Assembly: GCA_947627125.1 (NCBI GenBank) | Contig: CANQUY010000002.1 | Coordinates: 1-33,723 of the forward strand | Length of the DNA stretch: 33,723 bases | Reading direction: 5' to 3' | DNA from: an uncultured Clostridia bacterium | Lineage (GTDB): Bacteria; Bacillota; Clostridia; Christensenellales; Borkfalkiaceae | Shown here: positions 488 through 33,234 of the stretch, piece after piece | How the letters are laid out: each line of letters opens with the position of its first letter | Position numbering within the stretch: the first letter of the stretch is position 1 | The notes under the pieces: model-generated | What the model was told of the DNA's origin: nothing | The model's database searches: none | The model's input: the letters and a program-made list of their open reading frames with translations, nothing else | Program-made: the position numbers and the translations under genes

Positions 488-635
488 GCGGCGTCGTGCT
501 GAGAACGGGAGCACAACGCAGTCTACGAAAGTGGTACCGAAGCATCTCGCCGCATGACTTAAGAACTTCCGCCGCGAGATTCTTCGGGTTAGGTCCCGTC
601 CTCTCATCCTGCTCCGTTTCTCAGAATAACGCGGC
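488..635 (+). repeat. Family A paired-hairpin element, copy A1 (L+R arms)
   Basis: gcggcgtcgtgctgag...cgaagcatctcgccgc + gccgcgagattcttcggg...tctcagaataacgcggc. Confidence 0.9.
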
Positions 636-681
636 TGGGCGGGGCAGGATGAGCGGGCGGGAGAAAGAACGGGAGCGTATA

Positions 682-830
682 GCGGCGTCATGCTGAGAAC
701 GTGAGTACAACGCAGTCTACGAAAGTGGTACCGAAGCATCTCGCCGTATGCTCTACGGAATTCGCCGCGAGATTCTTCGGGTTAAGTCCGTATGACTTCG
801 TCCCTGCTCCGTTTCTCAGAATGACGCGGC
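682..830 (+). repeat. Family A paired-hairpin element, copy A2
   Basis: Same L/R arms as A1; stems ATGCT/AGCAT and ATTCT/AGAAT. Confidence 0.92.
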
Positions 831-3006: not shown

Positions 3007-3154
3007 GCGGCGTCATGCTGAGAACGGGAGTACAACGCAGTCTGCGGGAGCCATACCGAAGCATCTCGCCGCATGGTGTAAAGATGCCCCGCGAGATTCT
3101 TCGGGTTAAGTCCTCTGACTGCGTTCTTTCTCTCCTTCTCAGAATGACGCGGGG
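3007..3154 (+). repeat. Family A paired-hairpin element, copy A3
   Basis: L and R arms as in A1/A2; right arm outer stem ccccgcg/cgcgggg. Confidence 0.9.
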
Positions 3155-3412: not shown

Positions 3413-3455
3413 AGAATGACGCGGGGCGGGGCGACATGACTGCGTTCACCACCCC

Positions 3456-4856: not shown

Positions 4857-4859
4857 GCG

Positions 4860-5108
4860 CTATTCAATGGCCTTGAGCTTTTCCACCAACTTTTTAAGCC
4901 TCTTTCGCTGGGCGGAATTGAGCATCTGCGAAAAGCGGGCATAAAAGGCGTCGATTTGCTCGTTGGTCAGCGTGCCCGCCCTCTTTCCCGCCTCCGCCTT
5001 TGCGTAGATCTCGCGGATGATGTCATTTTCGCTCTTGCCCTGCACGGAGCCGACTGCCCTTTCCGCCTCCTTCATGAGTTCGTCGTCATAGCTTGCAAAA
5101 TCCTTCAT
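4860..5108 (-). CDS. Hypothetical small helical protein
   Basis: MKDFASYDDELMKEAERAVGSVQGKSENDIIREIYAKAEAGKRAGTLTNEQIDAFYARFSQMLNSAQRKRLKKLVEKLKAIE. Confidence 0.65.
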   Translation of the reverse strand: MKDFASYDDELMKEAERAVGSVQGKSENDIIREIYAKAEAGKRAGTLTNEQIDAFYARFSQMLNSAQRKRLKKLVEKLKAIE

Positions 5109-5171
5109 AGTCACCTCTCCCTTATCCTATGCCCCCTCACCTTTCCCTTGTGCACTGCATACAATGCCGAT

Positions 5172-5435
5172 ATGGAAACCATGCTCCTCCTCGTCTTGCT
5201 GATGATGAACTCGGATGAGAATTCCAAGGAAACGTTGCAGAGCCTTCTCCGCTTTTACCGTGAGAACAAGGACGTCATCGCCTCCCTACTGAATGCGCAA
5301 AAGGGCGGAGAAATGAGGGAAAATTCCGAAGATATCGCGCAGGATCCGCCCAAAGAGGCAGAAAAAAGCCGACCCCGCGAAGAGGTCGGCGATACGCGTA
5401 TCATCGAAGAATATTTAAAGCGTTTTTCAGTTTAA
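5172..5435 (+). CDS. Hypothetical small protein
   Basis: METMLLLVLLMMNSDENSKETLQSLLRFYRENKDVIASLLNAQ...RIIEEYLKRFSV; start in-frame inside track ORF 4956-5435. Confidence 0.55.
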   Translation: METMLLLVLLMMNSDENSKETLQSLLRFYRENKDVIASLLNAQKGGEMRENSEDIAQDPPKEAEKSRPREEVGDTRIIEEYLKRFSV

Positions 5436-6779: not shown

Positions 6780-6791
6780 GGTATCTCCTTT

Positions 6792-7739: not shown

Positions 7740-7873
7740 CTTTTCCCCTTTTCGTATCGTTTGCAAGCATTATATCACAGAAAAATGAAAAACGCAAGCC
7801 GTTTGCCCGTTATGAAAAGGTACGGCGGGGGGCAAACTATTGGCGGATTTGCGCGAAAGGGCAAACTTTGTAG

Positions 7874-7902
7874 TTGACAGCCGCACGATTCCGTGTTATA
7901 AT
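7874..7902 (+). promoter_or_regulatory. Consensus sigma70/sigmaA promoter
   Basis: TTGACA (7874-7879), 17-bp spacer, TATAAT (7897-7902). Confidence 0.85.
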
Positions 7903-7933
7903 GGTACGCGACAAGGAAAAAAGGAGTACTTGT

Positions 7934-9592: not shown

Positions 9593-9602
9593 ACTTAATA
9601 CA

Positions 9603-9636
9603 GCGGCCCGCCGAAGGATCGGCGGGCCGCTTTTTT
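9603..9636 (+). terminator. Intrinsic terminator
   Basis: GCGGCCCGCCG-AAGGAT-CGGCGGGCCGC-TTTTTT. Confidence 0.92.
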
Positions 9637-9648
9637 GCGCTATAAGTG

Positions 9649-11397: not shown

Positions 11398-11545
11398 AAA
11401 ATTACCCTTCAGTGAGATTTTTTCTTTTATTGTATGCCTAACGAAGAGAAAAGTCAAGTTGAAGGAATGAAAATTAAAAATTTAAAATGAAAAATTAAAA
11501 AATACACTCATGTCCCCGCGGCTGCGCCTTGGGATGAGGGCGGCG

Positions 11546-11573
11546 TCATGCTGAGCGTACGCGAAGCATCCCG
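11546..11573 (+). repeat. Minimal single hairpin (family C)
   Basis: ATGCTGAGCGTACGCGAAGCAT. Confidence 0.7.
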
Positions 11574-11594
11574 TTAAACGCACGGGGCCCGTTG

Positions 11595-11660
11595 GCGGCG
11601 TCATGCTGAGAACGGGTGTACAACGCAGTCTACGGAAGTCGGACCGAAGCATCTCGCCGC
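11595..11660 (+). repeat. Solo left arm (L4) of family A
   Basis: gcggcgtcatgctgag...ccgaagcatctcgccgc, followed by linker and another L arm rather than an R arm. Confidence 0.88.
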
Positions 11661-11683
11661 ATGCTTTATGGACTTTCGCCGTA

Positions 11684-11833
11684 GCGGCGTCATGCTGAGA
11701 ACGAGAGTGCAACGCAGTCTACGGAAGTCGGACCGAAGCATCTCGCCGCCCACATTACGGACATTCGCCGCGAGATTCTTCGGGTCAAGTCCTTTGACTT
11801 CGTTCCTGCTCCGTTTCTCAGAATGACGCGGCG
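11684..11833 (+). repeat. Family A element, copy A5 (L+R)
   Basis: L 11684-11749 and R 11766-11833. Confidence 0.92.
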
Positions 11834-11870
11834 GGGCCGACGCGGCGGCACGGAAACGCGGTGCAGAAAA

Positions 11871-11902
11871 CGCCGCCCGCGGACAGGCGTCCGCGGGCGG
11901 CG
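11871..11902 (-). terminator. Intrinsic terminator of the XRE gene
   Basis: Minus strand CGCCGCCCGCGGA-CGCCTG-TCCGCGGGCGGCG-TTTT just 3' of the stop at 11908. Confidence 0.82.
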
Positions 11903-11907
11903 ATCGT

Positions 11908-12114
11908 TTATTTCAATCCAAGAAGCTCATCGATCGATATCTCAAAAAATTTGGCGATCTTGATCAGCGAATCGTAATCGGGTTCATGCCTGCCCGACTC
12001 CCAAAAACTCACAGTTTGATTACAGAAGCCGAGCGCTTCGCCAAGCGCTTTCTGCGTCATTCCCCTCGCTTGCCGCAGCTCTTTCAACTGTCTGCCAAAG
12101 TAATTGTCTTTCAT
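11908..12114 (-). CDS. XRE-family HTH transcriptional regulator
   Basis: 68 aa MKDNYFGRQLKELRQARGMTQKALGEALGFCNQTVSFWESGRHEPDYDSLIKIAKFFEISIDELLGLK. Confidence 0.93.
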   Translation of the reverse strand: MKDNYFGRQLKELRQARGMTQKALGEALGFCNQTVSFWESGRHEPDYDSLIKIAKFFEISIDELLGLK

Positions 12115-12135
12115 AAAAAAATGATATCAAAATTT

Positions 12136-12177
12136 TCCTACAAATCGTTGACTTCCTACAAATCGTAGGATTATAAT
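12136..12177 (+). promoter_or_regulatory. Promoter with duplicated putative operator between XRE gene and divergent small ORF
   Basis: TTGACT (12148-12153), 18 bp, TATAAT (12172-12177); the spacer contains TCCTAC-AAATC-GTAGGA (12154-12170), and a second copy tcctacaaatcgttga starts at 12136, offset 18 bp. Confidence 0.75.
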
Positions 12178-12194
12178 AGGCATGAGGAAATGCT

Positions 12195-12371
12195 ATGACA
12201 TATGAAAACATTGAAATTATGGTAAAAGAACTGCGCGCGGCTTATTTAGCACTCGTCCATGCATGCATGAATTGCAATATGTCCGACGCAAATGAAAGAA
12301 AGACCGTGTTTCGATTGAAAGAAGAAGTTTTTGGGCTGTACATAAAAAATACACGCTGTTTCACAAGATAA
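12195..12371 (+). CDS. Small 58-aa protein divergent from the XRE gene (not in supplied ORF track)
   Basis: MTYENIEIMVKELRAAYLALVHACMNCNMSDANERKTVFRLKEEVFGLYIKNTRCFTR; GAGGA SD upstream; sits behind a good promoter. Confidence 0.65.
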   Translation: MTYENIEIMVKELRAAYLALVHACMNCNMSDANERKTVFRLKEEVFGLYIKNTRCFTR

Positions 12372-12448
12372 AAAAATGACCCTCCAAACTGCGGGTAAAG
12401 CGGCGGGCCGCTCATGCTGAATCCTGTTAAACACACGGGGGCCTGTGG

Positions 12449-12514
12449 GCGGCGTCATGCTGAGAATGGGAGTTGTACGCAGTCTACGGAAGCCAAACCG
12501 AAGCATCTCGCCGC
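12449..12514 (+). repeat. Solo left arm (L6) of family A
   Basis: First of three directly repeated L arms. Confidence 0.88.
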
Positions 12515-12537
12515 ACGCTTTACGGACATTCGCCGTA

Positions 12538-12603
12538 GCGGCGTCATGCTGAGAATGGGAGTTGTACGCAGTCTACGGAAGCCAAATCGAAGCATCTCGC
12601 CGC
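12538..12603 (+). repeat. Solo left arm (L7) of family A
   Basis: Second of three directly repeated L arms. Confidence 0.88.
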
Positions 12604-12626
12604 ATGCTTTATGAACTTTCGCCGTA

Positions 12627-12776
12627 GCGGCGTCATGCTGAGAACGGGAGTGCAACGCAGTCTACGGAAGTCGGACCGAAGCATCTCGCCGCACACATTG
12701 CGGACATTCGCCGCGAGATTCTTCGGGTCAAGTCCTTTGACTTCGTTCCTGCTCCCCTTCTCAGAGTGACGCGGCG
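12627..12776 (+). repeat. Family A element, copy A8 (L+R)
   Basis: L 12627-12692, R 12709-12776; R stem ATTCT/AGAGT (one G-T wobble). Confidence 0.9.
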
Positions 12777-12791
12777 GCCCTGCTCCCGTTG

Positions 12792-12940
12792 GCGGCGTCA
12801 TGCTGAGAACGAGAGTACAACGCAGTCTACGAGGGTTCTACCGAAGCATCTCGCCGCATGCTTTACGGATCTCCGCCGCGAGATTCTTCGGGTTAGTTTC
12901 CGTCCTCTCCTCCCTCTCCGTTTCTCAGAATGACGCGGCG
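12792..12940 (+). repeat. Family A element, copy A9
   Basis: L+R arms. Confidence 0.9.
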
Positions 12941-13080: not shown

Positions 13081-13160
13081 CACTAGATAAAACAAAAAAA
13101 TGACCTGCCAAACCGGTGGTTTTGCTTTTGGTGGAAGAAATGGGAGTCCGTTGATATACG

Positions 13161-13193
13161 GGAAATACCTGCGGACATGCCGCAGGTATTTCC
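13161..13193. terminator. 14-bp perfect hairpin downstream of the 13228-13899 gene (no clear T tract)
   Basis: GGAAATACCTGCGG-ACATG-CCGCAGGTATTTCC. Confidence 0.5.
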
Positions 13194-13227
13194 TTTCTAA
13201 GGAGGAAAGATAATATCTTAAGTATGA

Positions 13228-13899
13228 TCAGAAGATACTGCCGCCGCGGGAGGACGGATTGTCCGTCTTAGGCTCCCATGTGACCTCCGCCACCGTTTCG
13301 AGCTTGACGCAATCCACGGTGGGTCCGCCCGTACTTCCGTTTTTAAACGTATTGGGAAGTACGATGAGCGACAGGGTATTCATCCCCTCTTTCAGCTTGA
13401 TATTGGTCGAAACCGTCTTATCGTAGAACTTCATTTCGTCCATGGAAGAATTTTCGACATATATCGTCTGATAGGAGATATCTGCGTCATTCAATTTTAC
13501 GGCAAAGGACGTGGGATCGAGAGAAAGAGCGCCGAGTTCGGAGCCAAGTCGAAGCACGATGGCGGCGGAAGCTTCCTTGTCTGCATTGAATACGAAATCC
13601 AGCCTGAGGTTCGCGCTATAGGTATACCCGACGTAATAGCCGTTGCTCCAACCTTTCGCCTTTTCCGCTTCGGTCCCTTGCCCATAGATCATCTCAACGC
13701 CGCCCTGGTCGGAAGAGATCCCCGCGCCCTGTACGTTGTCGAGGTCGATATACTCCGCCTCGAGAACATAGGATCTTACGCCCGCCTGTCCCGAGCCGCC
13801 GCCGTTTTCTCCGCCGTTGTCCGTTGAAGTGCAACCCGCCATGAGTGCACATGCAGCCAGTGTCGCAAGCGCGAGCGCGGCAAAATTTTTAACTTTCAT
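13228..13899 (-). CDS. Lipoprotein with CBM6/35-like (galactose-binding-fold-like) domain
   Basis: Signal peptide with lipobox LMAGC; YVLEAEYIDL... and ...GGPTVDCVKLETV resemble the ends of carbohydrate-binding modules. Confidence 0.65.
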   Translation of the reverse strand: MKVKNFAALALATLAACALMAGCTSTDNGGENGGGSGQAGVRSYVLEAEYIDLDNVQGAGISSDQGGVEMIYGQGTEAEKAKGWSNGYYVGYTYSANLRLDFVFNADKEASAAIVLRLGSELGALSLDPTSFAVKLNDADISYQTIYVENSSMDEMKFYDKTVSTNIKLKEGMNTLSLIVLPNTFKNGSTGGPTVDCVKLETVAEVTWEPKTDNPSSRGGSIF

Positions 13900-16837
13900 C
13901 TTGTTTTTGCTCCTTTTTATGTTTTTTGACGATTTTTACAACAGTCACCGCCGAGAGAGCCGCAGCCGCCGCAAAGATAATGCAGTCGGCGACGATGATC
14001 CATACGACCCACACGGGCGTGGTATATCCCCAAACGACGTCGGCGCCGTAACCGTTCATCGCGCACGAATTTGCGACCGTATAGAGGATATTCTTTGCCG
14101 CACGGCGGATACAGGAAATATCTGTGGGGGTCGTGACGGAAGTGGGGCTCTTACCCGCCGAGAGATTTAAATCTCCTCCCGCACGGATCATCTGGTCGGC
14201 GTCCATATAGCTTTTGAGGTTAAAATCGGTGATCACCGTGCCCTCAAAGCCCCATTCGTTGCGCAGAAGTTCTGTGAGAAGCGCATAGCTGCCGCCCGTC
14301 CATGTGGTGCCGATACGGTTGAAAGAGGACATCACGCCCGTTGTGCCGCCGACTTTTACGCTGTGTTCGAACGGGACAAAGTAGATCTCGCGCATCGCCT
14401 GTTCGTTTGTCCAAGTGATGAGCCCCGTCTTGTCGCGCTTGGTTTCCTGTTCGTTGAGCGCAAAATGTTTTACGAACGTATACACACCCTTGGAGCGCGC
14501 GCCCTTGATCACGTTTTCCGCCAGAATACCTGAAAGCAGTCCGTCCTCGCTGTAATATTCAAAGTTCCTGCCGCCGAATTGGGAGCGATGCAGATTGACA
14601 GCGGGCGCATACCAGCCGGAGTACGGCCTCCCGTCGCCGTCCTCGTTGCCTACAAGGCCCTCGTTGCCGATCATTCTGCCCATCTCCTCGGCAAGTTCTC
14701 TGTTCCATGAAGAGCCGAGCACGGTTTCACTCGCATAGTAGCATGTGTCATATACGGCGCTGTCGCCCATAAACAGGGCGTAACCCATGGGACCGTCGGC
14801 GTCCGTTGTGAGCGGCTTGTCGATCCCGTCGAGCGCGAGCGTCCTGAAGTTGCCCGTTGAAATGAGCGTCACCATCTGCCCGACCGTAAGCTGGTCCATG
14901 AGCTGCTCCCAGAGCGGGTCGGAAAGATCTTTTCCGATCAGATCGGCGAGCTTGACCTGCGTATCGTCGCGGCGCAATTCTTTTTGGCTCTGCGTGGGAG
15001 CTTCCGACGCATACCACGGGTCGCTCTCCTTGTCATTCAGTTTGTAATTGACCCCGTTCACGATCGCTTCGGAAGCCTCGCGGCCGTCCGACGCACCGTA
15101 GAGCACATTGTAATTTTCAAAGTTATTCTTTCTCGAGAGATATTCCGCAATTTGCCCGCTCACATCGTCGAAAAGGTTTTCGATCTTCGTCCCGGTTGCG
15201 GCATCTGTTTCGTATCGGACGTCTTCACCGAGCGAAAAAGTGAAAGATATGACGTCGCTTTCCGCCCAACAGTGAGAGCCGTTGCCGATGTAAACGGTAT
15301 ATTCTCCCGCCTCGAGTTCGTATCCACGAAAACCGTTTCCGTTGGCGTCCGCATAATCGTAGGAAGCCATGGAGCGGACGTCGAGGGTAAGCGTTACGGT
15401 ATCTTCTCCCCCCGACGGAATGAGCGCGGTTTTGCGGAAATCACCCAAAACGATATGAGGTTTTTCGATCCCGCCGTCGTAAGGAGCGGAATACCACAGC
15501 TGTACAACGTCCTTTCCCGCCATGCCGCCCGTGTTTTTGACGGTCACGTCAAAGGAGAGTGTTCCGTCGGAGGACAGAGCGGGCGCGTTGCCGTTTTCCG
15601 CTTCCCGCACAAAGGACGTATAGCTCAGCCCGTAGCCGAAAGGATAGACGACGTTTTCTTCATACCAATCTCCGCCCGCCTCCTTGGCTCTCGTTTCATA
15701 GTAACGGTATCCGAAGTAGATCCCCTCGCGGTATTCCACAAAATAGGCGTCGCTCGTCTTACCCTTATAGGTATAGCGGTTGCCGTTTTCGGAGAGATAG
15801 TTGCCGAAATTCTGAAACGTAGGATCGTCTTTGAAATTCCTCGCATACGTATCTACTGTCCTGCCCGAGGGGTTCGTCTTTCCGACGAGCACCCTTCCGA
15901 GCGCCATCACGCCCAAATTCCCGGGATCGCCGATCCAGACTGCTGCCTTGATGTTCTCATGATAGGCATAATGGGACGGGTCGTCGAGAAAGCCGAGCTC
16001 GATCGGCGAAGCGCTGTTGATGACGACAACTACTTTTTTGAAGTTTGAACACGCCTCTTCGAGCATATCGGTTTCGTTGCGGTCGAGCTGGAGATAGTGA
16101 TCGTCTGCACTGCGCGCCCCGGGGATGGGCGTCGAGCTGTTCCAATCCGTATAGGAGGAACCGTTCCAGAACATGGTACGCGGCAGGTCATACCCCTCTC
16201 CGCCGATGCGGGAGAGTACGACAAGGGCGGCGTCGGAATATTCCGCATAGCTGCTGCGCACGTTCTGCGGGTACGGCAGGGGGGCTTCCGCAATGGGGAA
16301 GCCCGTAACGACGTCGCCCATGGCGGGAACGTCAGGCCTGCCGCTGCCCGATTGGCCGCTCTCGTAGTAGGCTTTCAGGGTGGGGTTGCACTGTAAACCT
16401 ACCGCCTCAAGGCTGCCGTACAGATCCGCTACCTCATCGGAACTTGCGCCCGCGTTTGAGCCCGAGCCGCCGAGAACGAGATCGACGGAATTCTTCCCGA
16501 AAACCGAGATCTTGCCGCTTGAAAGGGGGAGTGCGGCGTCATCGTTCTTGAGGAGAACAAATCCTTCTTCGCAGATCCGTTCGTTGAGCCCGTTTGCCGC
16601 AGCGAGGACTTCATCTTTGCTCCCGTAATCGGAAGTATAGTATTGATACGCAGAGGGATCTCCGCTCTTGAGATATGTTTCACTGCCGCCGAGCATGGAA
16701 CAGACGGTGTAATACAGAAATGAATTTTGTGTGATCACGATGGAAATGATGAGCAAGAGCACGAAAAGCACCGTGAAGATGCCCGACCACACGATGAGAG
16801 GCTTTGTCAGATCATTTTTCTTCATTGTCAACACGCG
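13889..16837 (-). CDS. Membrane-anchored glycoside hydrolase family 3 protein with inverted domain order
   Basis: N-terminal TM; GH3 C-terminal-type domain first (EEGFVLLKNDDAALPL), then FnIII-like (AGKDVVQLWYSAPY), then TIM-barrel-type (YAPAVNLHRSQFGGRNFEYYSEDG...FVKHFALNEQE...GFEGTVITDF), C-terminal TM. GTG start at 16837 preferred because of AGGAGG spacing; ATG at 16825 is the alternative. Confidence 0.88.
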   Translation of the reverse strand, partial: RVLTMKKNDLTKPLIVWSGIFTVLFVLLLIISIVITQNSFLYYTVCSMLGGSETYLKSGDPSAYQYYTSDYGSKDEVLAAANGLNERICEEGFVLLKNDDAALPLSSGKISVFGKNSVDLVLGGSGSNAGASSDEVADLYGSLEAVGLQCNPTLKAYYESGQSGSGRPDVPAMGDVVTGFPIAEAPLPYPQNVRSSYAEYSDAALVVLSRIGGEGYDLPRTMFWNGSSYTDWNSSTPIPGARSADDHYLQLDRNETDMLEEACSNFKKVVVVINSASPIELGFLDDPSHYAYHENIKAAVWIGDPGNLGVMALGRVLVGKTNPSGRTVDTYARNFKDDPTFQNFGNYLSENGNRYTYKGKTSDAYFVEYREGIYFGYRYYETRAKEAGGDWYEENVVYPFGYGLSYTSFVREAENGNAPALSSDGTLSFDVTVKNTGGMAGKDVVQLWYSAPYDGGIEKPHIVLGDFRKTALIPSGGEDTVTLTLDVRSMASYDYADANGNGFRGYELEAGEYTVYIGNGSHCWAESDVISFTFSLGEDVRYETDAATGTKIENLFDDVSGQIAEYLSRKNNFENYNVLYGASDGREASEAIVNGVNYKLNDKESDPWYASEAPTQSQKELRRDDTQVKLADLIGKDLSDPLWEQLMDQLTVGQMVTLISTGNFRTLALDGIDKPLTTDADGPMGYALFMGDSAVYDTCYYASETVLGSSWNRELAEEMGRMIGNEGLVGNEDGDGRPYSGWYAPAVNLHRSQFGGRNFEYYSEDGLLSGILAENVIKGARSKGVYTFVKHFALNEQETKRDKTGLITWTNEQAMREIYFVPFEHSVKVGGTTGVMSSFNRIGTTWTGGSYALLTELLRNEWGFEGTVITDFNLKSYMDADQMIRAGGDLNLSAGKSPTSVTTPTDISCIRRAAKNILYTVANSCAMNGYGADVVWGYTTPVWVVWIIVADCIIFAAAAALSAVTVVKIVKKHKKEQKQDES

Positions 16838-19800
16838 AGGTATCCTCCTTTTTGCGTTTGCCGCGCATCAGAAGGACGCCGCCGAGAACGCAAACGGTAG
16901 CCAGGAACACTCCCGCGCCGCCGAGGCCGATGACGCCGCCGCAGCCGCCCGAATTACCGCCCGCCTGTCCCTCGTCGATGTGAAGGGTCAGCGTGATCTC
17001 ATCGCCCACTTTCCCCTCTGCGGAAGCGACGACCGTAAAGGTGTAATCGCCCGCCTTGGAGGGAGTACCTGAGATGACGCCGTTTTCGGAGAGCGTAAGT
17101 CCCTCGGGCAGAGCACTGCCCGCTTTCAACGTGTAAGAGATCTCACCCGCTCCCTGCGCCGTATCGACGCGGGCCGAGTAGCTCTCTCCCGTCCTTCCGT
17201 TCTGAAGCGTCGTTTCATTGAATGAGAGTCCGATCGTCAGGGTAAACTGTGCTTCAACGGGTTCGGTGAAGGGGGATGTCGCAATGACGGTAAAGGTATA
17301 ATCGGTCACTGCCTCGCGGGGTGTCCCCGTGATATAGCCGCCCGAAGTGAGCGTGAGGCCGTTGGGAAGTTTGCTCTCCTCGGAGAGCGCGTAAGTCACT
17401 TTGCCCTGCGTTTCGGCAGCGGGAAGTTTTTGCATATACGAAACGCCGAGTTTTCCGCCCGCAAGCGCACCGCCCGTAAAAGTCATTTCGTAGAAAACGT
17501 TGAGCTTGAACGGGAGCGTGACGCTTGGATATCCGCTTGCGCTCGCCGTGACGGAGAAAGCATAGTTCTCACAAACGGATGTCGGTGTTCCCGTGATCGT
17601 GCCGTCGGCATTCAGCGTCAATCCTGCGGGGAGCTTGCTTCCGCTCGCAAGCGCATAGGTGCAGGTGGGAAGCGCGCCGGTTGCGTTGGGGTTCACTACT
17701 TTTGCGCCTGCGACAGTGAGATTCGCAGCCTTGTTTACATAGATCGTGCCTAAATTTTCTTCCGCCTCATAGACGATGGCGCCGTTATAGCCGACGACAC
17801 TGATCGTAAACTCTGCTGTTCTTGAATAATCGTCGTATGTTGCCTTTACCTTGAAACGGAAGCTGTTGATCTCTTCTGTCGGGATACCGGAGATCTCACC
17901 CTGTTCGGAGAGCGTGAGCCCTTCGGGAAGTCTGCTCCCCTCCGCAATGGTATATTTGATCTCGGAATCGTCAATGTCGGGATAAAAGACGTCCGACAGC
18001 TTTGCATTTGCAACATTTGCCGTATAGGGCATTCCTGTGACAGCTCTCTCGAGAAGTCCGCCCGTGAAGGTCTGGATGGGTGTATGCTCGCCCTGCGGCA
18101 TGCTGTTGAGTGCGTTGGAATGCGCCTGCGCATAGAGCAAGTTATGCACTGCGTTGCGCAGACAGGTGATCGTCGTTGCGCTATCCTTATTGTAGTTGAG
18201 ATTTGCCCAACCGAGCGCAAGGGTGCCGCCCGCGCGGATCATTTGGTCCGCATTGGAGAGGTTGGAAGTGTCGCCGAGGTAGCTGTCCGTGACAACGGTG
18301 CCCTTAAAGCCCCATTCGTTGCGGAGAACTTCGGTAAGGAGTTCATAGCTACCGCCTGCCCACGTCGTGCCGATACGGTTGAGCGAGGACATAATGCCAA
18401 GCGCACCGCCCTCCTTCACACACACCTCAAACGACTTGAAGTAGAGTTCGCGCATCGACTGCTCATTTGCCCATGTGATGAGGCCGCAGCGGTTATTCTC
18501 GGAGTTGTTGAGCGCAAAGTGCTTGCAATAGACGAGAAGGCCTTTCTCTTGCGTACCCTTGACGGTATTTGCAGAGATCATGCCTGCGAGGAAGCCGTCC
18601 TCGGAATAGTACTGCGCATTCCGTCCGCCGAACTGCGAGCGGTGAAGGTTGACAGCGGGTGCATACCATGCGCCGATCTGATCGTTCCAGCCCCAAAGAG
18701 CATCTTCGCCGATCATCTTACCGTAGCGGTAAGCGAGATCGGTATTCCATGTCGAGGCAAGGAGCGCGGGGGTACCAAAGTGATAGTGGGTATCCTGTGC
18801 GCCGCCTTGCGGGACGAAATGGTTGACGTCGTCACAGTTCGTCATCGCCTTTACGCCGTATTCGGGGAAATCCTTGCCCGAGACATAGCTCCCTTTCGTG
18901 ACAAGTTCGATGAGCTGGTTGACGGAGAACTGATCGAGATATTGATCCCACTTGGGATCGTCAAAGTCAAGCCCGCGGAGATCCTCAAGTTTAATGCCGT
19001 TTCTGGCATTCGTCGTGGGCATCTCTTCCGTATAGTAAGGTTCACTCTTGTCCGCTTCAGGGTCGCGGGTCTGCTGCCCGTCCGTGACGAGCCATTCTTT
19101 CAGGCCGTTGATCACGTCCTCGGAAGCGGTGAGTTTGTAGTTGAATTTCGGCCAAGTCCCCTCCCAATCGCTACGGGAGAGATACTTCTGTCCGAGGTCG
19201 TCCGTGATATAATCGCTGACGTCATCAAAACGGTTCTCGACCTTGTTTCCCGTCGCCTCGTCTGTCTCATACTGAATGCCATTATCGAGCACATATGTGA
19301 CGGTTTCGATGGTTTCATGGGCATTCTTCATGAGCTTTACGACATAGTCGCCCGCATCGAGTTCATAGCCCTTGAAGCCGTTTTGGTTGGCGTCCGAATA
19401 GTCGTAAGAGGCCATGCTCTGCACGCTGAAGGAGAGCGTGAGTGTCTCCTCTTCGGCGGGTTCGAGCAGCTTTGTCTTTGCGAAAGCCGCGAGGACGACA
19501 TGTGCCTTTTCGACCTGACCGTTCTTGTATGGAGCGGTGTAGTAGACCTGTACGACGTCCTTGCCCGCGACGGAACCCGTGTTCTTGACTTTCACCTTGA
19601 GGGTGATCGTCCCGTCCTTTGTCAGAGTGCTGTTGCCGACGGGTTCCGCCGAAACGAGCGTCTGTTCAAAGGTCGTGTAACTCAGGCCGTACCCGAGCGG
19701 ATAGACGACGTGTGCGTCGTACCAACTATCCCAATTTGTTGTCGTCGTGCCGTGAATGTAGTCTTTGGACTTCCCCGCACTGCCGCCGCTTCCGTTCGGA

Positions 19801-20963
19801 AGAGCTTCATAGCTCGAGGCATCGAGATATTGTGCCTTTTCGGCCTCCGTCGCACTCGTATAAGAGGAATTCCCTTCAGTAAGTCCCCTCGTCTCCCAAT
19901 AACGGTAACCGACATAGATACCTTCATTATAGGTGACATAGTTGTTGACATATCCGCCGCCGCCAAGTCCCTCAGAACTCGGAAGATTTGCGTATTGGTT
20001 CCCCTTTTGGGAAGGGTTGACCTCCATAAGGTAGTTGCCAAAGTTCTGCCATGTGGGATCGAGTTTGAAGTCTCTTGCCCACGTATCCGTCGTGCGGCCG
20101 CTCGGGCTGATCTCCCCTTTCAGGATCTGGGCAACAGGTGAAGTGTTGTAGGGATCAGATATAAAGAATGCTGCCTTGATATTTTTTTGATAGGCATAGT
20201 GGCCGGGGTCATCCAAAAAGCCTGTTTCCATTGAGGACGGCGTGTGCAGAAGGACGATGACTTTTTCAAAGTTCTCTGCGCACATCTTTAAAAGATCTGT
20301 CTCGTTCTGGTCAAGCTGAAGATAGTGGTCATCTTTTGCCCTTGCGCCCGGAACAAGCTGGTCGGATTTATCCGTCCACTTTCCGTAACTCTCGCCGTCC
20401 CACATCATGGTGCGGGGATTGTCCCAACCTTCACGGCCCGCTCTGTAGAACACGACGATCGCGGCATCGTTGTAGTCCTTGAAAGAATCCTTGATATTCT
20501 GCGTATAGTTTTCGATCGGCGTTTCGCCCGTATTGAGACCTGCCGAAATCGCGTTGCCATAGCTCTGGGAATCTGCCCCTTTGCCGGAAAGATTACTGTC
20601 CGAATAAAAATTCGAAAGTATGTTGTTGACCTTGAATCCTGCTGCGCCGAACTCACCGGCATAGCTGTATCTTGCCGATGCCTTTCCGAAAATACTGACC
20701 TTGGAGCCCTCCGCAAGGGGCAGAGCGTTGTCCTCATTCTTGAGAAGGACCGCCCCTTCCGCCGTGATCTCCTTATCGAGATCCGTGGCGGCCGCGCTCA
20801 ACTCCTTTCTCGTGTCATATTCCGAAACATAGACATTTGGCTTGAGCGTTGCCGCCGCCGAGGCGGATACCCGTGAAGTCACGGGTATCACGATGCTGAG
20901 CGCCATTGCGCCCATCAGCGCAAAGGCCATCAATGGTTTTGTTTTAAAATTCTTGTTCGCCAA
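16812..20963 (-). CDS. Surface-anchored glycoside hydrolase family 3 protein with inverted domain order and four putative-Ig (He_PIG-like) repeats
   Basis: ~1383 aa from TTG at 20963 with AGGAGG 6 nt upstream; GH3 motifs YAPAVNLHRSQFGGRNAQYYSEDG, GFKGTVVTDS; four repeats of LP(E/A/N)GLTL...G.I(S/T)G(I/T)P...; C-terminal TM and basic tail. Confidence 0.9.
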   Translation of the reverse strand: MANKNFKTKPLMAFALMGAMALSIVIPVTSRVSASAAATLKPNVYVSEYDTRKELSAAATDLDKEITAEGAVLLKNEDNALPLAEGSKVSIFGKASARYSYAGEFGAAGFKVNNILSNFYSDSNLSGKGADSQSYGNAISAGLNTGETPIENYTQNIKDSFKDYNDAAIVVFYRAGREGWDNPRTMMWDGESYGKWTDKSDQLVPGARAKDDHYLQLDQNETDLLKMCAENFEKVIVLLHTPSSMETGFLDDPGHYAYQKNIKAAFFISDPYNTSPVAQILKGEISPSGRTTDTWARDFKLDPTWQNFGNYLMEVNPSQKGNQYANLPSSEGLGGGGYVNNYVTYNEGIYVGYRYWETRGLTEGNSSYTSATEAEKAQYLDASSYEALPNGSGGSAGKSKDYIHGTTTTNWDSWYDAHVVYPLGYGLSYTTFEQTLVSAEPVGNSTLTKDGTITLKVKVKNTGSVAGKDVVQVYYTAPYKNGQVEKAHVVLAAFAKTKLLEPAEEETLTLSFSVQSMASYDYSDANQNGFKGYELDAGDYVVKLMKNAHETIETVTYVLDNGIQYETDEATGNKVENRFDDVSDYITDDLGQKYLSRSDWEGTWPKFNYKLTASEDVINGLKEWLVTDGQQTRDPEADKSEPYYTEEMPTTNARNGIKLEDLRGLDFDDPKWDQYLDQFSVNQLIELVTKGSYVSGKDFPEYGVKAMTNCDDVNHFVPQGGAQDTHYHFGTPALLASTWNTDLAYRYGKMIGEDALWGWNDQIGAWYAPAVNLHRSQFGGRNAQYYSEDGFLAGMISANTVKGTQEKGLLVYCKHFALNNSENNRCGLITWANEQSMRELYFKSFEVCVKEGGALGIMSSLNRIGTTWAGGSYELLTEVLRNEWGFKGTVVTDSYLGDTSNLSNADQMIRAGGTLALGWANLNYNKDSATTITCLRNAVHNLLYAQAHSNALNSMPQGEHTPIQTFTGGLLERAVTGMPYTANVANAKLSDVFYPDIDDSEIKYTIAEGSRLPEGLTLSEQGEISGIPTEEINSFRFKVKATYDDYSRTAEFTISVVGYNGAIVYEAEENLGTIYVNKAANLTVAGAKVVNPNATGALPTCTYALASGSKLPAGLTLNADGTITGTPTSVCENYAFSVTASASGYPSVTLPFKLNVFYEMTFTGGALAGGKLGVSYMQKLPAAETQGKVTYALSEESKLPNGLTLTSGGYITGTPREAVTDYTFTVIATSPFTEPVEAQFTLTIGLSFNETTLQNGRTGESYSARVDTAQGAGEISYTLKAGSALPEGLTLSENGVISGTPSKAGDYTFTVVASAEGKVGDEITLTLHIDEGQAGGNSGGCGGVIGLGGAGVFLATVCVLGGVLLMRGKRKKEDTSRVDNEEK

Positions 20964-20964
20964 A

Positions 20965-22911
20965 TCACACCTCCTCATAACCGAAAGCATTGGTGTATGC
21001 AAACTGCAAGATAACACCGATCGCATGTGAGCTGTCCTTGGCATCGAACTGGGCCACTCTCACAAAGATATAATAGTACTCATTCTCTTCTCTTTCGAAT
21101 GTCAGAACGAAAGGAATGACCTCGCCGATCTCTTTGATATTGAGTTCTGCCTTTGCAACCTGTCCTGCAGTGGGATCCTCGGGATCCGTCGAAATGATGA
21201 CCTCAAGATACTGCTTGGGTTCCTCGTATGCATTGACGCGGTTGATGCAGTTGCCGTAAATGGTGAGCGTAGGATTTTCCGCATCGTAGTCGGGAAGATT
21301 GTTGATGTTGAGGACCATGTGTCTGGCGGAAGGATCGTCGCTCCATTTCGTCGCATAGCTTCCGAAAATGAACACGCCCTGATCGCCGAGCACGGTATAC
21401 TCGGGGCCGTATGACTCGGAAGGATTCTGCCACGTTGCACCGGTCGCACGGTAGCTGATGTCCACGGGTTCAGAGCCCTCTGCCGCCATGACCTGAGGAT
21501 CTCCGTTCGGATAGAGCTCAGACGCAACACCGAATACCATGTCGATCTTGACCTCTTCGGAGCCGTTATTCTCACGGAGAGCCCAACCCATCCAAGGGCT
21601 GCTGAGACCGATATTGACAGGGAAGTATTTTACGACGACCGAATTGGGAGCGACCTCGATCACGCCCGACGTGGACGCCATGAGGCAATAGGAAGCAAAG
21701 ACCTCGAGCTTCAAGGTCTGGGTATCGCTGTGATTCTTGAAAATGACCTTGCCCATGGCGCGGCTGTTAGGTGTCTTGAGATTGGATCCCTGAATGTTTT
21801 CTTCGCCATAGCCCTGCCAAGCGCTCTGGGAAGCAGGGATCGTTACGGTATATCCGGAAAGTCCCTGAAGGTCGGCGTCGCCGTTTCCGTCGGTGATTTT
21901 TGTCGTTGTGCAGCCTTTGCTGTTTGCATTATCTGCCGTCCAGACTGACGTGGAGAAGGATGAGTACACTGCGGTGTAGCTCGTTTCCTCTTCATCGCCC
22001 ATGGTGAAGGTGTATTCGTCGATTCCCATTTCACCAACTCTGTTGTTGAGATAACGATAATCCCAACCGACGAACGCTCTGCCCGATTCGGGAGTCGCCT
22101 TGATCGTGATCTGCGTACCGAATTTGAAATTATAGTTGGTGATCTTCGTCTCGTTGTTTTCAAATTCATCGGAAGCATAACCGCCTGCGGTCCCCTGCGG
22201 ATCGGAAACTTCACCCGCCTTCGTCACCGTCGCGCCGACGAGGGTAAGAGGATACAGCGTATCGGTGAAATTCGCCGTCGCCGTCACGTTGCTCGCGGGC
22301 ATCGTAAAGGTATAGCCATTGAGCGCAACGTCATCGTTGTCGAACGTCCATTCCGTGAGCGTCTTATGCGCGGGGGCGGTCGCCTCGAGGGTGACTTGCG
22401 TGCCCGCTTCCGCCTTTGTGATCGTTTCGCCGTCCGCATTCTTCGCAACGCCGTCCACGACCGTGATGGTATACTGCGTTTTGGGTCTGTCGTCCTCGAC
22501 GGATAGGATAAATTCCGCCGACTTCTTCCCCGTATCCGCCTTGATCACCGTTTCGCCCGCGCCATTGAGGGTCACGGTGGCCTTTGTCTTGTCGCCCTCT
22601 ACCGTGGCAACGTCGTGCTCGGTGCTTGTCCATGTGAGCGTGTATGAGGCGCCCTCGTCCGCCGTAACGACGGGGACGATCTCGAACGTGCCCTTGGTAA
22701 GGTTCATCGAAAGAAGCCCCTCAACGGCAGCATTGTTGTAGTTGAGTGCGACCGATTTTACCTCGGGTGTGACCGTACTCTGGTTCCCCGACCCGCCATC
22801 GTCAGGCTTCCCGCCGTCGTCTTGCTTTCCGCCGCAGCCCGCCACCGCGCATACGCCCAGCGCCATGACCGCGCTCAGGATAAGCGCCAAAAATTTGTTT
22901 CTTCCTGTCAT
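20965..22911 (-). CDS. Large lipoprotein with Ig-like / InlB-type repeat-like regions
   Basis: Lipobox AVAGC; Big2-like region (VTPEVKSVALNYNNAAVEG...); TEWTFDNDDVALNGYTFTMPASNVTATANF and AFVGWDYR...EYTFTMGDEEETSYTAVY resemble Listeria-Bacteroides repeats; uncharacterised C-terminal half. Confidence 0.75.
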   Translation of the reverse strand: MTGRNKFLALILSAVMALGVCAVAGCGGKQDDGGKPDDGGSGNQSTVTPEVKSVALNYNNAAVEGLLSMNLTKGTFEIVPVVTADEGASYTLTWTSTEHDVATVEGDKTKATVTLNGAGETVIKADTGKKSAEFILSVEDDRPKTQYTITVVDGVAKNADGETITKAEAGTQVTLEATAPAHKTLTEWTFDNDDVALNGYTFTMPASNVTATANFTDTLYPLTLVGATVTKAGEVSDPQGTAGGYASDEFENNETKITNYNFKFGTQITIKATPESGRAFVGWDYRYLNNRVGEMGIDEYTFTMGDEEETSYTAVYSSFSTSVWTADNANSKGCTTTKITDGNGDADLQGLSGYTVTIPASQSAWQGYGEENIQGSNLKTPNSRAMGKVIFKNHSDTQTLKLEVFASYCLMASTSGVIEVAPNSVVVKYFPVNIGLSSPWMGWALRENNGSEEVKIDMVFGVASELYPNGDPQVMAAEGSEPVDISYRATGATWQNPSESYGPEYTVLGDQGVFIFGSYATKWSDDPSARHMVLNINNLPDYDAENPTLTIYGNCINRVNAYEEPKQYLEVIISTDPEDPTAGQVAKAELNIKEIGEVIPFVLTFEREENEYYYIFVRVAQFDAKDSSHAIGVILQFAYTNAFGYEEV

Positions 22912-22967
22912 AAATTTCCCTCCGTTTTGTTGATTTTGACAGAATTCAGGAAAATTCTATCATCTGC

Positions 22968-22996
22968 CTTATACCATACCTGAAAATAGATTTCAA
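22968..22996 (-). promoter_or_regulatory. Promoter of the lipoprotein/GH3 operon
   Basis: Minus strand TTGAAA (22996-22991), 17-bp spacer, TATAAG (22973-22968). Confidence 0.65.
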
Positions 22997-23003
22997 CAAA
23001 AAT

Positions 23004-23035
23004 GGCTCAATCTTGCAAAAAAGCGGCTCAAACTT
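23004..23035 (-). promoter_or_regulatory. Putative LytTR-type response-regulator operator (direct repeats)
   Basis: Plus strand ggctcaatctt (23004-23014) and ggctcaaactt (23025-23035), 21 bp apart, 7 bp upstream of the -35. Confidence 0.55.
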
Positions 23036-23116
23036 ATAAAATTCAATCTTTTTAGCGGGAAAGATGAAATTTTCTTGCAACAAAAAAAGCGGCTGCCGCC
23101 GCTATGCTTCGATCTG

Positions 23117-24442
23117 TCATTTTCTTTTCGGAAAGAGAATGATCTGCAGACGGAAAACATTGTCCTCCGTTTCGATCTGCATCGAGCCGTCGTACTGCTC
23201 GCAGATATACTGGATACTTTTGAGCCCAAATCCGTGGTTGATGCGGTCGGACTTGGTCGTCTGCGGCAAGCCCTTTTCTCCGCGCACGAGGGCGTCGGAA
23301 AAATAATTGCTCTCACGGATCGAAAGCATCTCCCCCACCGGCTTCACATGCAGATCGATGATCCTCTGCGGCGGAGGGAGTTTTAAAACGGCTTCGATCG
23401 CATTGTCTACAATGTTGCCGAAGAGCGCGTAGATATCTTCGTCACGGATATATTTCAGGCTCTCGCCGTCAACGATGTAGTTGAAATTGATCTGCTGTTT
23501 ATTGCAGAGCAAACTTTTTTCGATGAGGATCACGTCGAGCGACTCGTTTCCCGTCTTGACCACCGCGTCGTAGATGGAGATCCTGTCCTCGAGTTCACGC
23601 AAAATCTTCGGATCGACCGTCCCGTCCTTCCCGAGGCTGCGGATCTGGTGCTTGATATCGTGGCACTTCATATTGATGATCTCGATATTTTCTTTGGAGA
23701 TCTCGTACTGCGATCTTGTCTTTTCCCACATCTGTTGCATAAAGTCAAACGTCGTTTCGATTTTCCGTCTTATCGCAACCTCAAACTGCAGATAGAGGGA
23801 AATAATACAGCAAAGAACGCAGTACAGCCCTATGATGATGACATAAAGTTTCCCGTCTTGAAGAGGATTGAGCACGATAATGGAGTTCAACAGAATGTCG
23901 ACAATGAGGATAAAGATCGAAAAGATGAAAATGAACGTCTTTTTTACGTCGATACTCTCTTTCGGGGCGAGCTTGGTGGAAAAGAACATGTAACAGAGAA
24001 AGTAGGAAACGACGTAGACGATCATGTATACGGCAAAGACGAAGAGATTGGGAAAGGTCTGCAAAAAGTCTGTCTGGCCGTAAAAGCCCGCCGAATCCGT
24101 TGCGTTCATCAGCGTGAGCAAAATGTTATAGATCTCATAGCTCATATGTTGCGTCGTATAACCCGCAAAACAACAAAAGATCACGGTGAACCAGCTCTCG
24201 CGGAAGAGGAATTTTGCGACGAGCACGGTAAAGAGAAAGATCAGGAGGAACGTGAGCGCAAAGAGAAAAGGATTGTCGGGAAGAACGGGAAAGAGCCACG
24301 CGAATAAAAAACAGGCAGAGAGCCCCACGATCAATCTGAGCAGAAAAAGCGACCGCCTCCTGAATCTGTAGATATACATACTCTCCGCCGCAAGCAGTTC
24401 GAAAACGAAGAGAAATGATTTGTAAAATTCAAATTGAGTCAT
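23117..24442 (-). CDS. AgrC-like GHKL sensor histidine kinase
   Basis: Six or so N-terminal TM helices; HDIKHQIRSL; N-box NIVDNAIEAV; G-box NHGFGLKSIQYICEQYDG. Confidence 0.9.
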   Translation of the reverse strand: MTQFEFYKSFLFVFELLAAESMYIYRFRRRSLFLLRLIVGLSACFLFAWLFPVLPDNPFLFALTFLLIFLFTVLVAKFLFRESWFTVIFCCFAGYTTQHMSYEIYNILLTLMNATDSAGFYGQTDFLQTFPNLFVFAVYMIVYVVSYFLCYMFFSTKLAPKESIDVKKTFIFIFSIFILIVDILLNSIIVLNPLQDGKLYVIIIGLYCVLCCIISLYLQFEVAIRRKIETTFDFMQQMWEKTRSQYEISKENIEIINMKCHDIKHQIRSLGKDGTVDPKILRELEDRISIYDAVVKTGNESLDVILIEKSLLCNKQQINFNYIVDGESLKYIRDEDIYALFGNIVDNAIEAVLKLPPPQRIIDLHVKPVGEMLSIRESNYFSDALVRGEKGLPQTTKSDRINHGFGLKSIQYICEQYDGSMQIETEDNVFRLQIILFPKRK

Positions 24443-24443
24443 A

Positions 24444-25172
24444 TCAGAGGTTCAGGCCGAGATATCGGTTGAGTTCGATGACAAACTCTTTCTTGCGGGG
24501 GTGGGAAATGGCGACCTCGTCCGTCTTGTCGGAATTTCTTCCATAGGAAACAAAGACAGAGAACCCGTTTATCCCCACGACGTAGCGCAAGTTTACAAGG
24601 CAGTAATTATTGCACTTTGAAAAGTGGTTTTTGATCAGAAGCGGCTCGAGTTTTTTCAGCGTGCCCCTCACCTCGAAGTCGCGCTCCGTCGTGTGATAGA
24701 TGAGTCTGTGCTTGAGGACTTCTACATAGCGGATCGTCTTGACGGCGATAAACTTGACGACGCCGTCGTCCTTTACCGATACCACGTCGCGATCCTGCCG
24801 CAGATCCTTTTTCCGTACGCGGTCGAGCTTGATCGCGAGATCGAAGTAAGATACGGGCTTTACCATAAAGTCGTCCGCATTGACCTCGTAACCGTTGATG
24901 GCATACTGCCGCATGTTCGTCACAAAGATGAGAGAAACGGTATCGTCCACCTCACGGAGTTTTCTCGCGGCGTCCATCCCGTTCATTCCCGGCATGTCGA
25001 TATCCAATAAAACAAGATCGTAACGGTTGGTATACTGCGTCAAAAACTGCACGGGATCGCCGAACCAATCGGCGTTTATTTCAATTCCGCGTTCTTTGGC
25101 ATAGCTGGCAAGGAGTAGCTTCAGCGCTTCTGCGATGCTTTTTTCATCGTCAACAATAGCAATATTCAGCAT
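24444..25172 (-). CDS. LytTR-family response regulator
   Basis: MLNIAIVDDEKSIAEALKLLL...LVLLDIDMPGMNGMDAARKLRE; C-terminal LytTR-like IRYVEVLKHRLIYHTTERDFEVRGTLKKLEPLL...FSKCNNYCLVNLRYV. Start at 25172 with AGGAAAT SD. Confidence 0.92.
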   Translation of the reverse strand: MLNIAIVDDEKSIAEALKLLLASYAKERGIEINADWFGDPVQFLTQYTNRYDLVLLDIDMPGMNGMDAARKLREVDDTVSLIFVTNMRQYAINGYEVNADDFMVKPVSYFDLAIKLDRVRKKDLRQDRDVVSVKDDGVVKFIAVKTIRYVEVLKHRLIYHTTERDFEVRGTLKKLEPLLIKNHFSKCNNYCLVNLRYVVGINGFSVFVSYGRNSDKTDEVAISHPRKKEFVIELNRYLGLNL

Positions 25173-25203
25173 GATTTCCTCGCTTTTTTGAAAAATCTTT
25201 TTC

Positions 25204-25232
25204 ATTGTACAACAAAGAATTTTCTTTGTCAA
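25204..25232 (-). promoter_or_regulatory. Promoter of the two-component operon
   Basis: Minus strand TTGACA (25232-25227), 17 bp, TACAAT (25209-25204). Confidence 0.8.
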
Positions 25233-25475
25233 GGCTCAGATTTTGAAAAATTCTTTCACTATTTTTGGATTTTATGAAAAAATTGTGCACATTTTCAATT
25301 TTTATTCCCTATTATAAGGGCTCTGCGCAGTACGGAGAAAAAAATATTTTTCTATGATGACACGGCACTCGGTCCACCAAAAAAAGGACGGCAAAACTGC
25401 GTGTAAAGCGGCGGGTCCCTCATTCCGAGCCCCGCAAGGGGCGAAAGAATCCCGCTATAAAGACGGAAGTCCATC

Positions 25476-25542
25476 GGCGGCGTCATGCTGAGAACGAGAG
25501 TGCTACACAGTCTACGGAAACCAAACCGAAGCATCTCGCCGC
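25476..25542 (+). repeat. Solo left arm (L10) of family A
   Basis: Precedes the six-unit tandem array. Confidence 0.88.
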
Positions 25543-25565
25543 ATGCTTTATGAACTTTCGCCGTA

Positions 25566-26538
25566 GCGGCGTCATGCTGAGATTGGGAGTGCAACGCAGT
25601 CTACGGAAGCCAAACCGAAGCATCTCGCCGCATGCTTTACGAATCTCCGCCGCGAGATTCTTCGGGTCAAGTCCTTTGACTTCGTTCCTGCTCCGTTTCT
25701 CAGAATGACGCGGCGGCCTTGCTCCCGTCGGCGGCGTCATGCTGAGAACGGGAGTACAACGCAGTCCAGAGAAGTTATACCGAAGCATCTCGCCGCATGC
25801 TTTACGAATCTCCGCCGCGAGATTCTTCGGGTCAAGTCCTTTGACTTCGTTCCTGCTCCGTTTCTCAGAATGACGCGGCGGCACTGCTCAATTGGCGGCG
25901 TCATGCTGAGAACGAGAGCACAACGCAGTTTACGGAAGCCAAACCGAAGCATCTCGCCGCACACATTACGGACATTCGCCGCGAGATTCTTCGGGTTAGA
26001 TTATCGGACTTCGTTCCTGCTCCCCTTCTCAGAATGACGCGGCGGCTCTGCTCCGTTGGCGGCGTCATGCTGAGAACGGGAGTGCAACGCAGTCTACAGA
26101 AACCAAACCGAAGCATCTCGCCGCACACATTACGGACCTTCGCCGCGAGATTCTTCGGGTCAAGTCCTTTGACTTCGTTCCTGCTCCCCTTCTCAGAATG
26201 ACGCGGCGGCACTGCTCCCGTTGGCGGCGTCATGCTGAGAACGGGAGTACAACGCAGTCTACGGAAGCCAAACCGAAGCATCTCGCCGCATGCAAACACG
26301 GACAATCGCCGCGAGATTCTTCGGGTTAAGTCGTCGGACTTCGTTCCTGCTCCGTTTCTCAGAATGACGCGGCAGCCCTGCTCCATTGGCGGCGTCATGC
26401 TGAGAACGGAAGTTGTACGCAGTCTACAGAAACCAAACCGAAGCATCTCGCCGCACACATTACGGACATTCGCCGCGAGATTCTTCGGGTCAAGTCCTTT
26501 GACTTCGTTCCCGCTCCCCTTCTCAGAATGACGCGGCG
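25566..26538 (+). repeat. Tandem array of six full family A elements (A11-A16)
   Basis: L-arm starts at 25566, 25731, 25895, 26059, 26224, 26389: period 164-165 bp, about 14-bp spacers such as cactgctcccgttg. Confidence 0.95.
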
Positions 26539-26604
26539 GCACGGAGGCCTGTGGGCGGAGTGGGCCGCTCATGCTGCCCAACAACAATTTTTAACTTTAT
26601 AATA

Positions 26605-26634
26605 TTGACTTTCCGTGGAATTCTGTGATAAAAT
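26605..26634 (+). promoter_or_regulatory. Putative promoter abutting the 26641 start codon
   Basis: TTGACT (26605-26610), 18 bp, TAAAAT (26629-26634); ATG at 26641. Confidence 0.55.
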
Positions 26635-28445: not shown

Positions 28446-28595
28446 GCGGCGTCATGCTGAGAACGGGAGCACAACGCAGTCTACGGAAGACGTACCGAAG
28501 CATCTCGCCGCATGCAAACACGGACATTCGCCGCGAGATTCTTCGGATTAGTTTCCGTCCTCTCCTCCCTCTCCGTTTCTCAGAATGACGCGGCC
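28446..28595 (+). repeat. Family A element, copy A17
   Basis: L+R arms. Confidence 0.92.
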
Positions 28596-28611
28596 GCGGT
28601 GAGGTCCGTGG

Positions 28612-28762
28612 GCGGCGTCATGCTGAGAACGGGAGCACAACGCAGTCTACGGAAGACGTACCGAAGCATCTCGCCACATGCAAACACGGACATTCGCCGC
28701 GAGATTCTTCGGGTTAGTTTCCGTCCTCTCCTCCCTCTCCGTTTCTCAGAATGACGCGGCGG
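28612..28762 (+). repeat. Family A element, copy A18
   Basis: L+R arms, 166 bp from A17. Confidence 0.92.
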
Positions 28763-30284: not shown

Positions 30285-30365
30285 GAGCGGAGCGGCAGGA
30301 TGAACGCGGGGGGCGAGTACACCGACGGCGGCGTTCTGTATGCGTCATGGCGCCCCGCACAGGCA

Positions 30366-30455
30366 TTCTAATCACGTCATGGTGAGCAACGTCGAACCAT
30401 CACCTTATTTATAATGCGGTGATCCTTCGACTACGCTCAGGATGACGTGATTGGG
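30366..30455 (-). repeat. Family B element, copy B2 (spacer inverted relative to B1/B3)
   Basis: tctaatcacgtc ATGGTGAGCAACGTCGAACCAT caccttatttataatgcggtg ATCCTTCGACTACGCTCAGGAT gacgtgattggga; spacer is the exact reverse complement of B3's. Confidence 0.88.
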
Positions 30456-33007: not shown

Positions 33008-33060
33008 GGGATACTCCTTTTGAAGTTGTCGTTTGGGACGCCCCGCCCCCCTACCCAACC

Positions 33061-33155
33061 GTTCTAATCACGTCACCCTGAGCAACGTCGAAGGGTCACC
33101 GCATTATAAATAAGGTGATGGTTCGACTACGCTCACCATGACGTGATTGGAATGC
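33061..33155 (+). repeat. Family B element, copy B3
   Basis: gttctaatcacgtca CCCTGAGCAACGTCGAAGGG tcaccgcattataaataaggtg ATGGTTCGACTACGCTCACCAT gacgtgattggaat. Confidence 0.9.
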
Positions 33156-33234
33156 CTGCGCGGGGCGCTATGACGTGATTGGAATGCCTGCGCGGGGTGC
33201 TATGACGTGATTGGAATGCCTCCGTAGTGGCATA
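33139..33234 (+). repeat. 32-bp tandem repeat, three units, overlapping the B3 right end
   Basis: tgacgtgattggaatgcctgcgcggggcgcta (33139-33170), same with one change (33171-33202), diverged third unit (33203-33234). Confidence 0.88.

Follow-up and report, generated by a model that had tools for sequence, protein, structure and literature searches.

Among described palindromic repeat systems, CGTC-tagged REPs have been reported from Proteobacteria, Chlorobi, Bacteroidetes, Spirochaetes and Thermotogae, and their dimers are predominantly heterodimers, a bias with no obvious explanation for which protection from SbcCD, with a minimum stem between 8 and 16 bp, has been proposed (Di Nocera et al. 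2013, PMC3733652). Comparable architectures are found in the REPINs of Pseudomonas fluorescens SBW25, where an inverted REP doublet forming a hairpin disperses and is in some cases reiterated with flanking DNA (Bertels and Rainey 2011, PMC3116915), and in the SMAG repeats of Stenotrophomonas maltophilia, of which monomers or dimers are reiterated in tandem with flanking DNA (PMC2613905). A literature search for such repeats in Clostridia returned nothing relevant. Here, we describe a tandem array of paired hairpins in an uncultured Clostridia bacterium whose genome assembly comprises 1.77 Mb in 206 contigs (~92% complete), the window, meaning the whole 33,723-nt stretch of DNA analysed, being contig 2. 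In our view, the array very probably represents a cluster, amplified locally, of a palindromic repeat that is dispersed, non-autonomous and of the REP/BIME/REPIN kind.

The array ends at 26535 and has a unit period of 164-165 bp. Its six full units begin exactly where a first-pass annotation of this DNA had placed them, and the solo left arm reported ahead of them exists, starting at 25477 and not at 25476 (Table 1), from where a step of 89 bp leads to the first full unit. Each unit consists of an L arm of 66 nt, a spacer of ~16 nt, an inverted R arm and a linker of 17-18 nt that is repeated as well, and the units are mutually 83-96% identical. Over 25566-26542, TRF returned a period of 164 with 5.9 copies (score 1451) and a period of 330 with the higher score of 1549, consistent with two units having been duplicated together (units 3-4 at 25895-26223 versus units 5-6 at 26224-26553, 91% identical). 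The earlier description of nearly invariant stems and variable loops was borne out, as was its view that the array is neither coding nor a CRISPR: a dicodon model calls no gene in the array, the mixture of 164 and 165 periods would break any reading frame, and the entire period repeats, spacers and linkers included, whereas a CRISPR would have short identical repeats with unique spacers. No gathering-level match to a known structured RNA was obtained in an Rfam search of the window. The copy number is as given by a metagenome assembly and several clusters of the family lie at contig ends (C36, C71, C133, C170), both of which could speak for an assembler having multiplied one unit, but we regard such an artefact as extremely unlikely, as the units differ by 4-17%, have loop letters in common that are specific to the array (CCAAACC in five of six) and have tandem counterparts at many loci, and assemblers tend to collapse copies rather than invent them. 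The clusters at contig ends instead suggest that arrays break the assembly, so that real copy numbers may exceed the assembled ones.

Table 1. Coordinates of the array, of related clusters and of neighbouring features in the window.
Feature	Position	Strand	Basis
Solo L arm, 66-nt hairpin, 23-nt spacer to unit 1	25477..25542	+	nhmmer arm scan
Unit 1: L arm, ~16-nt spacer, inverted R arm	25566..25712	+	
Unit 2, L-spacer-R	25731..25877	+	
Unit 3, L-spacer-R	25895..26041	+	
Unit 4, L-spacer-R	26059..26205	+	
Unit 5, L-spacer-R	26224..26371	+	
Unit 6, L-spacer-R, last of the array	26389..26535	+	
Related cluster LR LR	488..828	+	arm scan
Related single LR unit	3007..3151	+	arm scan
Related cluster L LR	11595..11830	+	arm scan
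Related cluster L L LR LR, at the opposite end of the 12.25-kb block from the array	12449..12937	+	arm scan
Related cluster LR LR, two near-identical units	28446..28758	+	arm scan
Response-regulator promoter-like site, external to the array, kept in sister genome G033	25204..25232	-	
Lipoprotein-gene promoter-like site, external to the array, kept in sister genome G033	26605..26634	+	
12.25-kb block (two GH3 genes, InlB-repeat protein, GHKL/LytTR pair); context, not element	13112..25360	.	

A single unit folds at -70.1 kcal/mol, compared with -44.0 +/- 4.0 for shuffles (z = -6.5). The L arm is the hairpin GCGGCG-TC-ATGCT-GA-G...C-GA-AGCAT-CT-CGCCGC, and the two arms have different stem cores, ATGCT/AGCAT in L and ATTCT/AGAAT in R, with the third core pair being G-C in L for 134 of 135 units and T-A in R for 133 of 135. 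Long arms are thus built of a 5-bp core, a tandem G-A step, one closing pair and a loop of ~38 nt, and the same genomes also hold short arms with loops of mostly 5-6 nt between TGAG and CGAA. In the two-hairpin structure 99.2% of cells are paired, and conservation is too high for covariation within the units. In the wider family, covariation of the stem is found in arms of the form TCA-XXX-TGAG...GAA-YYY-T, with YYY complementary to XXX in 256 of the 292 arms from the array's own genome and in 268 of 329 from the sister genome G033 (chance, 1 in 64). L also pairs with R across the whole unit, 86.2% of cells being paired compared with 35-45% in the slid controls; both partners have changed in 59 cells, compared with 39 in shuffles, RNAalifold reports three pairs with double changes, and 135/135 units reach the long-hairpin fold. 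According to these predictions, the unit could fold either as two hairpins or as one long hairpin, the two folds sharing letters.

Using nhmmer profiles of both arms, we found 238 arms in 70 clusters within 230 kb of the own genome and 41 arms within 1.07 Mb of G033, a comparison in which the 230 kb are regions picked for holding copies and the profiles, built from the own genome, somewhat favour its counts. With 13 arms, the array is the largest cluster of the family found, and the other clusters in the window mark it as one locus of a dispersed intergenic family and not as a local peculiarity. Within any cluster the arms all share one strand; the commonest form is the single LR (27 clusters), accompanied by LLR, LRLR, LRR, LLLR and others, lone arms are rare (5), and spacings are regular (L-L mostly 19-25, L-R mostly 16, LR-LR mostly 17-21). 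All 58 clusters for which a simple dicodon gene caller gave two neighbours are intergenic, with the neighbouring genes in the same direction at 35, divergent at 12 and convergent at 11. The distribution is patchy, with any match in 16 of 103 genomes of the genus and none in 24 belonging to other genera within the order, and the named loci with the long element all come from 'uncultured Clostridia bacterium' genomes of a 'Lapin' series, which we read as rabbit-gut metagenomes. The search for long-arm relatives outside the genus gave two Anaerolineae pattern matches with short or intermediate arms only, and the viral contigs, plasmids and phages searched gave no match. The window additionally holds a second palindromic pair of ~100 bp with CCC and TGG stem-type arms on the same head-to-head heterodimer plan (3171-3271, 30353-30454, 33049-33150), and small tandem repeats of 56 bp (3277-3444) and 32 bp (33138-33233) adjoin short palindromic repeats.

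In multi-unit clusters, the nearest relative of a unit lies in its own cluster for 21 of 33 units, compared with 0.86 expected, which indicates that LR pairs disperse and that arrays grow in place by local tandem duplication. The dispersing unit would be the head-to-head pair of two different hairpins, L and R. Once it has settled in an intergenic space, its arms singly or the LR unit as a whole would multiply by tandem duplication, the growth step presumably being slippage or unequal crossing-over between direct copies, and the resulting clusters could then serve as direct-repeat homology for rearrangement. A comparison of filled and empty sites at nine loci yielded no clean site, because the sister genome either has the element too or is occupied by other repeats at these positions, and we therefore infer the movement of the LR unit. 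The element might alternatively be a MITE, that is, a deletion derivative of a DDE transposon moved in trans, with L and R as its terminal inverted repeats. Such an origin would suit a unit with fixed ends and imperfect terminal inverted repeats, with copies dispersed between genes and arms as consistently unlike as left and right ends. The inverted repeats, however, take up nearly the whole unit, both arms form hairpins of their own and arms are also duplicated singly (LLLR and LRRR), and we consider a MITE improbable; no target-site duplication could be seen at the nine compared loci, none of which offered a clean empty site.

No dedicated transposase of the element was found in a search that covered PF01797. 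Mobilisation as a REPIN by a RAYT tyrosine transposase would match the architecture of an inverted REP doublet forming a hairpin, with extragenic dispersal and tandem clusters, and the own genome does have one Y1 transposase, located next to an R-R-L cluster. This protein, however, belongs to IS200/IS605 (NF033573), the tag is CGTC and not GTAG, and the element-rich relatives G026, G031, G032 and G033 gave no PF01797 match although the E. coli control was positive, leaving mobilisation by a RAYT very unlikely; an association with RAYTs in the own genome and these four relatives was ruled out on the same grounds. A partial PF01797-type match was obtained in one further genome (G010). The IS200/IS605 gene beside the R-R-L cluster (L159 2995-3850, C75) has apparently inserted in a short palindromic repeat.

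The sister genome G033 is colinear with the window over 2677-12407 and again from 26578 on, at ~89-95% identity, and holds no arm at either matching flank, compared with 13 here, in line with the variability in copy number that the first-pass annotation had anticipated, in this case between species. At other compared loci, the intergenic regions of G033 carry different repeat families; an abundant other repeat (GGCTCCCCCTC...GAGGGGGAGC with CACGCCGTCCTTGCGTGACTGAGGGGGT) fills many of them where the own species has the paired-hairpin element (e.g. L066 455-530, L164 2480-2560). Between species with ~93% identity in their genes, intergenic regions have turned over nearly in full. The 12.25-kb block that separates the array from the cluster at 12449-12937 is present in G033 at 96% identity, there between recG and an ATPase gene (L164 2645-14881), and in G026 at lower identity, with still other neighbours. 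In the own genome, recG is followed by repeats and by sequence that by eye reads as a tmRNA gene, matched also in G031. Since its neighbours differ in three genomes of the genus (also L165 1396-13498), the block looks like a mobile gene cluster. Both of its edges in the own genome are element clusters (12449-12937 and 25477-26535), and recombination between them, probably homologous, could explain its relocation; a role in recombination, suggested earlier for the array, is possible, given that the two clusters adjoin the edges of a block found elsewhere in G033. The AAA ATPase gene adjoining the relocated block in G033 (L164 14937-16304, C34) is weakly similar to the anti-phage ATPases PtuA and MAD3 and to a retron effector, all below the cut-off, and gave no match in six relatives.

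The position 25232, previously taken as that of a leftward promoter, does carry a promoter-like TTGACA, the site running from 25232 to 25204, but no gene seems to begin there: translation of the response regulator more likely initiates at an ATG (25172) than at the TTG of the open reading frame, which coincides with the TTGACA. The sole terminator-like site of the stretch (25450-25468) lies just ahead of the array, and no promoter-like or terminator-like site was found inside it. The array sits between divergent genes, and long RNA or DNA hairpins close to promoters could in principle matter, so that the repeats might be imagined to control the divergent two-component and lipoprotein genes in cis, with copy number tuning expression. 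Both promoter-like sites, however, are external to the array, and their sequences are conserved in the array-free G033, which implies that the array is not needed for either promoter; the array has no such site of its own, and clusters of the element are found in every gene orientation. The regulatory role proposed earlier for this locus is therefore not supported, and we consider control in cis quite improbable. The array could still have a modulating effect on the flanking promoters, but it probably has no regulatory duty.

The paired arms follow a heterodimer rule. Among inverted head-to-head pairs from seven genomes plus a small assortment of further loci, the stem types of the two arms differ in 173 and agree in 2, both of which have arms of unequal loop length, whereas direct neighbours differ in 57 cases and agree in 64. 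This contrast is partly a matter of descent, as tandem copies are alike by origin and the pairs have few founders, and a test at the level of combinations that allows for descent was not significant (1 homodimer in 15 ordered combinations of 7 stem types, P = 0.30). For the short arms of G033, 54 of 55 pairs are heterodimers compared with 38.9 under random re-pairing, which ignores descent. Because L and R differ, perfect stems are limited, with a maximum of 7 bp in 97 units out of 135 and of no more than 9 bp in 128; in the one unit tested, equal arms would have extended the perfect stem to 14. These lengths suggest that long perfect palindromes are avoided, although the pairs may alternatively descend from few founders. 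Tentatively, and with considerable doubt, we propose that pairs whose arms are identical are eliminated by a palindrome-removing system, either SbcCD or replication-linked deletion, and that the fixed L/R mismatch keeps perfect stems at ~7 bp, below the 8-16 bp given in PMC3733652 for the SbcCD minimum, so that heterodimers alone would persist and spread, with no transposase involved. The own genome has genes for both SbcC and SbcD, the latter cut by a contig end 37 bp away. Loss of SbcCD as the cause of a repeat burst was ruled out, SbcC being present and SbcD merely interrupted by the contig end. The reason for heterodimer predominance in bacterial palindromic pairs being unexplained in PMC3733652, these genomes, with at least five common stem types, hundreds of arms and direct neighbours as an internal contrast, make the question testable by simple constructs. 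The heterodimer rule is the part of the finding worth testing, while the array is a known phenomenon in a new lineage.

Compared with the CGTC-tagged REPs, the element likewise has head-to-head dimers that are mostly heterodimers, with the tags outside, a stem starting with AT after the tag, an intergenic location and, as far as the PF01797 search in four element-rich relatives shows, no dedicated transposase (PMC3733652). L carries CGTCAT at its outer end and R the complement at its own, both conserved to at least 90% in 76 units, and the first two stem positions are paired AT...AT in at least 75 of 76 units in both arms. The differences lie in dimensions and host: the arms here measure 66 nt with a loop of ~38 nt, compared with stems of 8-9 bp and loops of 4-5 nt, which the short arms of the same genomes come close to, the stem is interrupted by the tandem G-A step, large tandem arrays are rare in the CGTC super-family, and Clostridia are absent from the five phyla listed for it. 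As in REPINs, an inverted doublet that can form one hairpin disperses as a unit, and the array of six units and one arm recalls the largest SBW25 cluster of four REPINs and one REP, but the SBW25 elements go with GTAG-type REPs and RAYT transposases (PMC3116915), whereas the repeats here carry the CGTC tag and no RAYT was found in the own genome, G026, G031, G032 or G033. As neither the stem and loop dimensions of CGTC-tagged REPs nor the RAYT of REPINs is found, we place the element as a member of neither group. SMAG arrays change length or are swapped for another repeat family between strains, much as is seen between the two species here, although SMAG are short GTAG-tagged repeats varying at strain level and the difference observed here is one between species only (PMC2613905). 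Enterobacterial BIMEs are likewise mosaic intergenic clusters of inverted palindromic repeats (PMC2817692), but their arms are shorter and the sequence of the repeat is not the same. In tag and dimer type, the nearest relatives of the element are thus the CGTC-tagged REPs, while in its behaviour it resembles a REPIN or BIME cluster, and the family represents large REPIN-like arrays in Clostridia without a RAYT.
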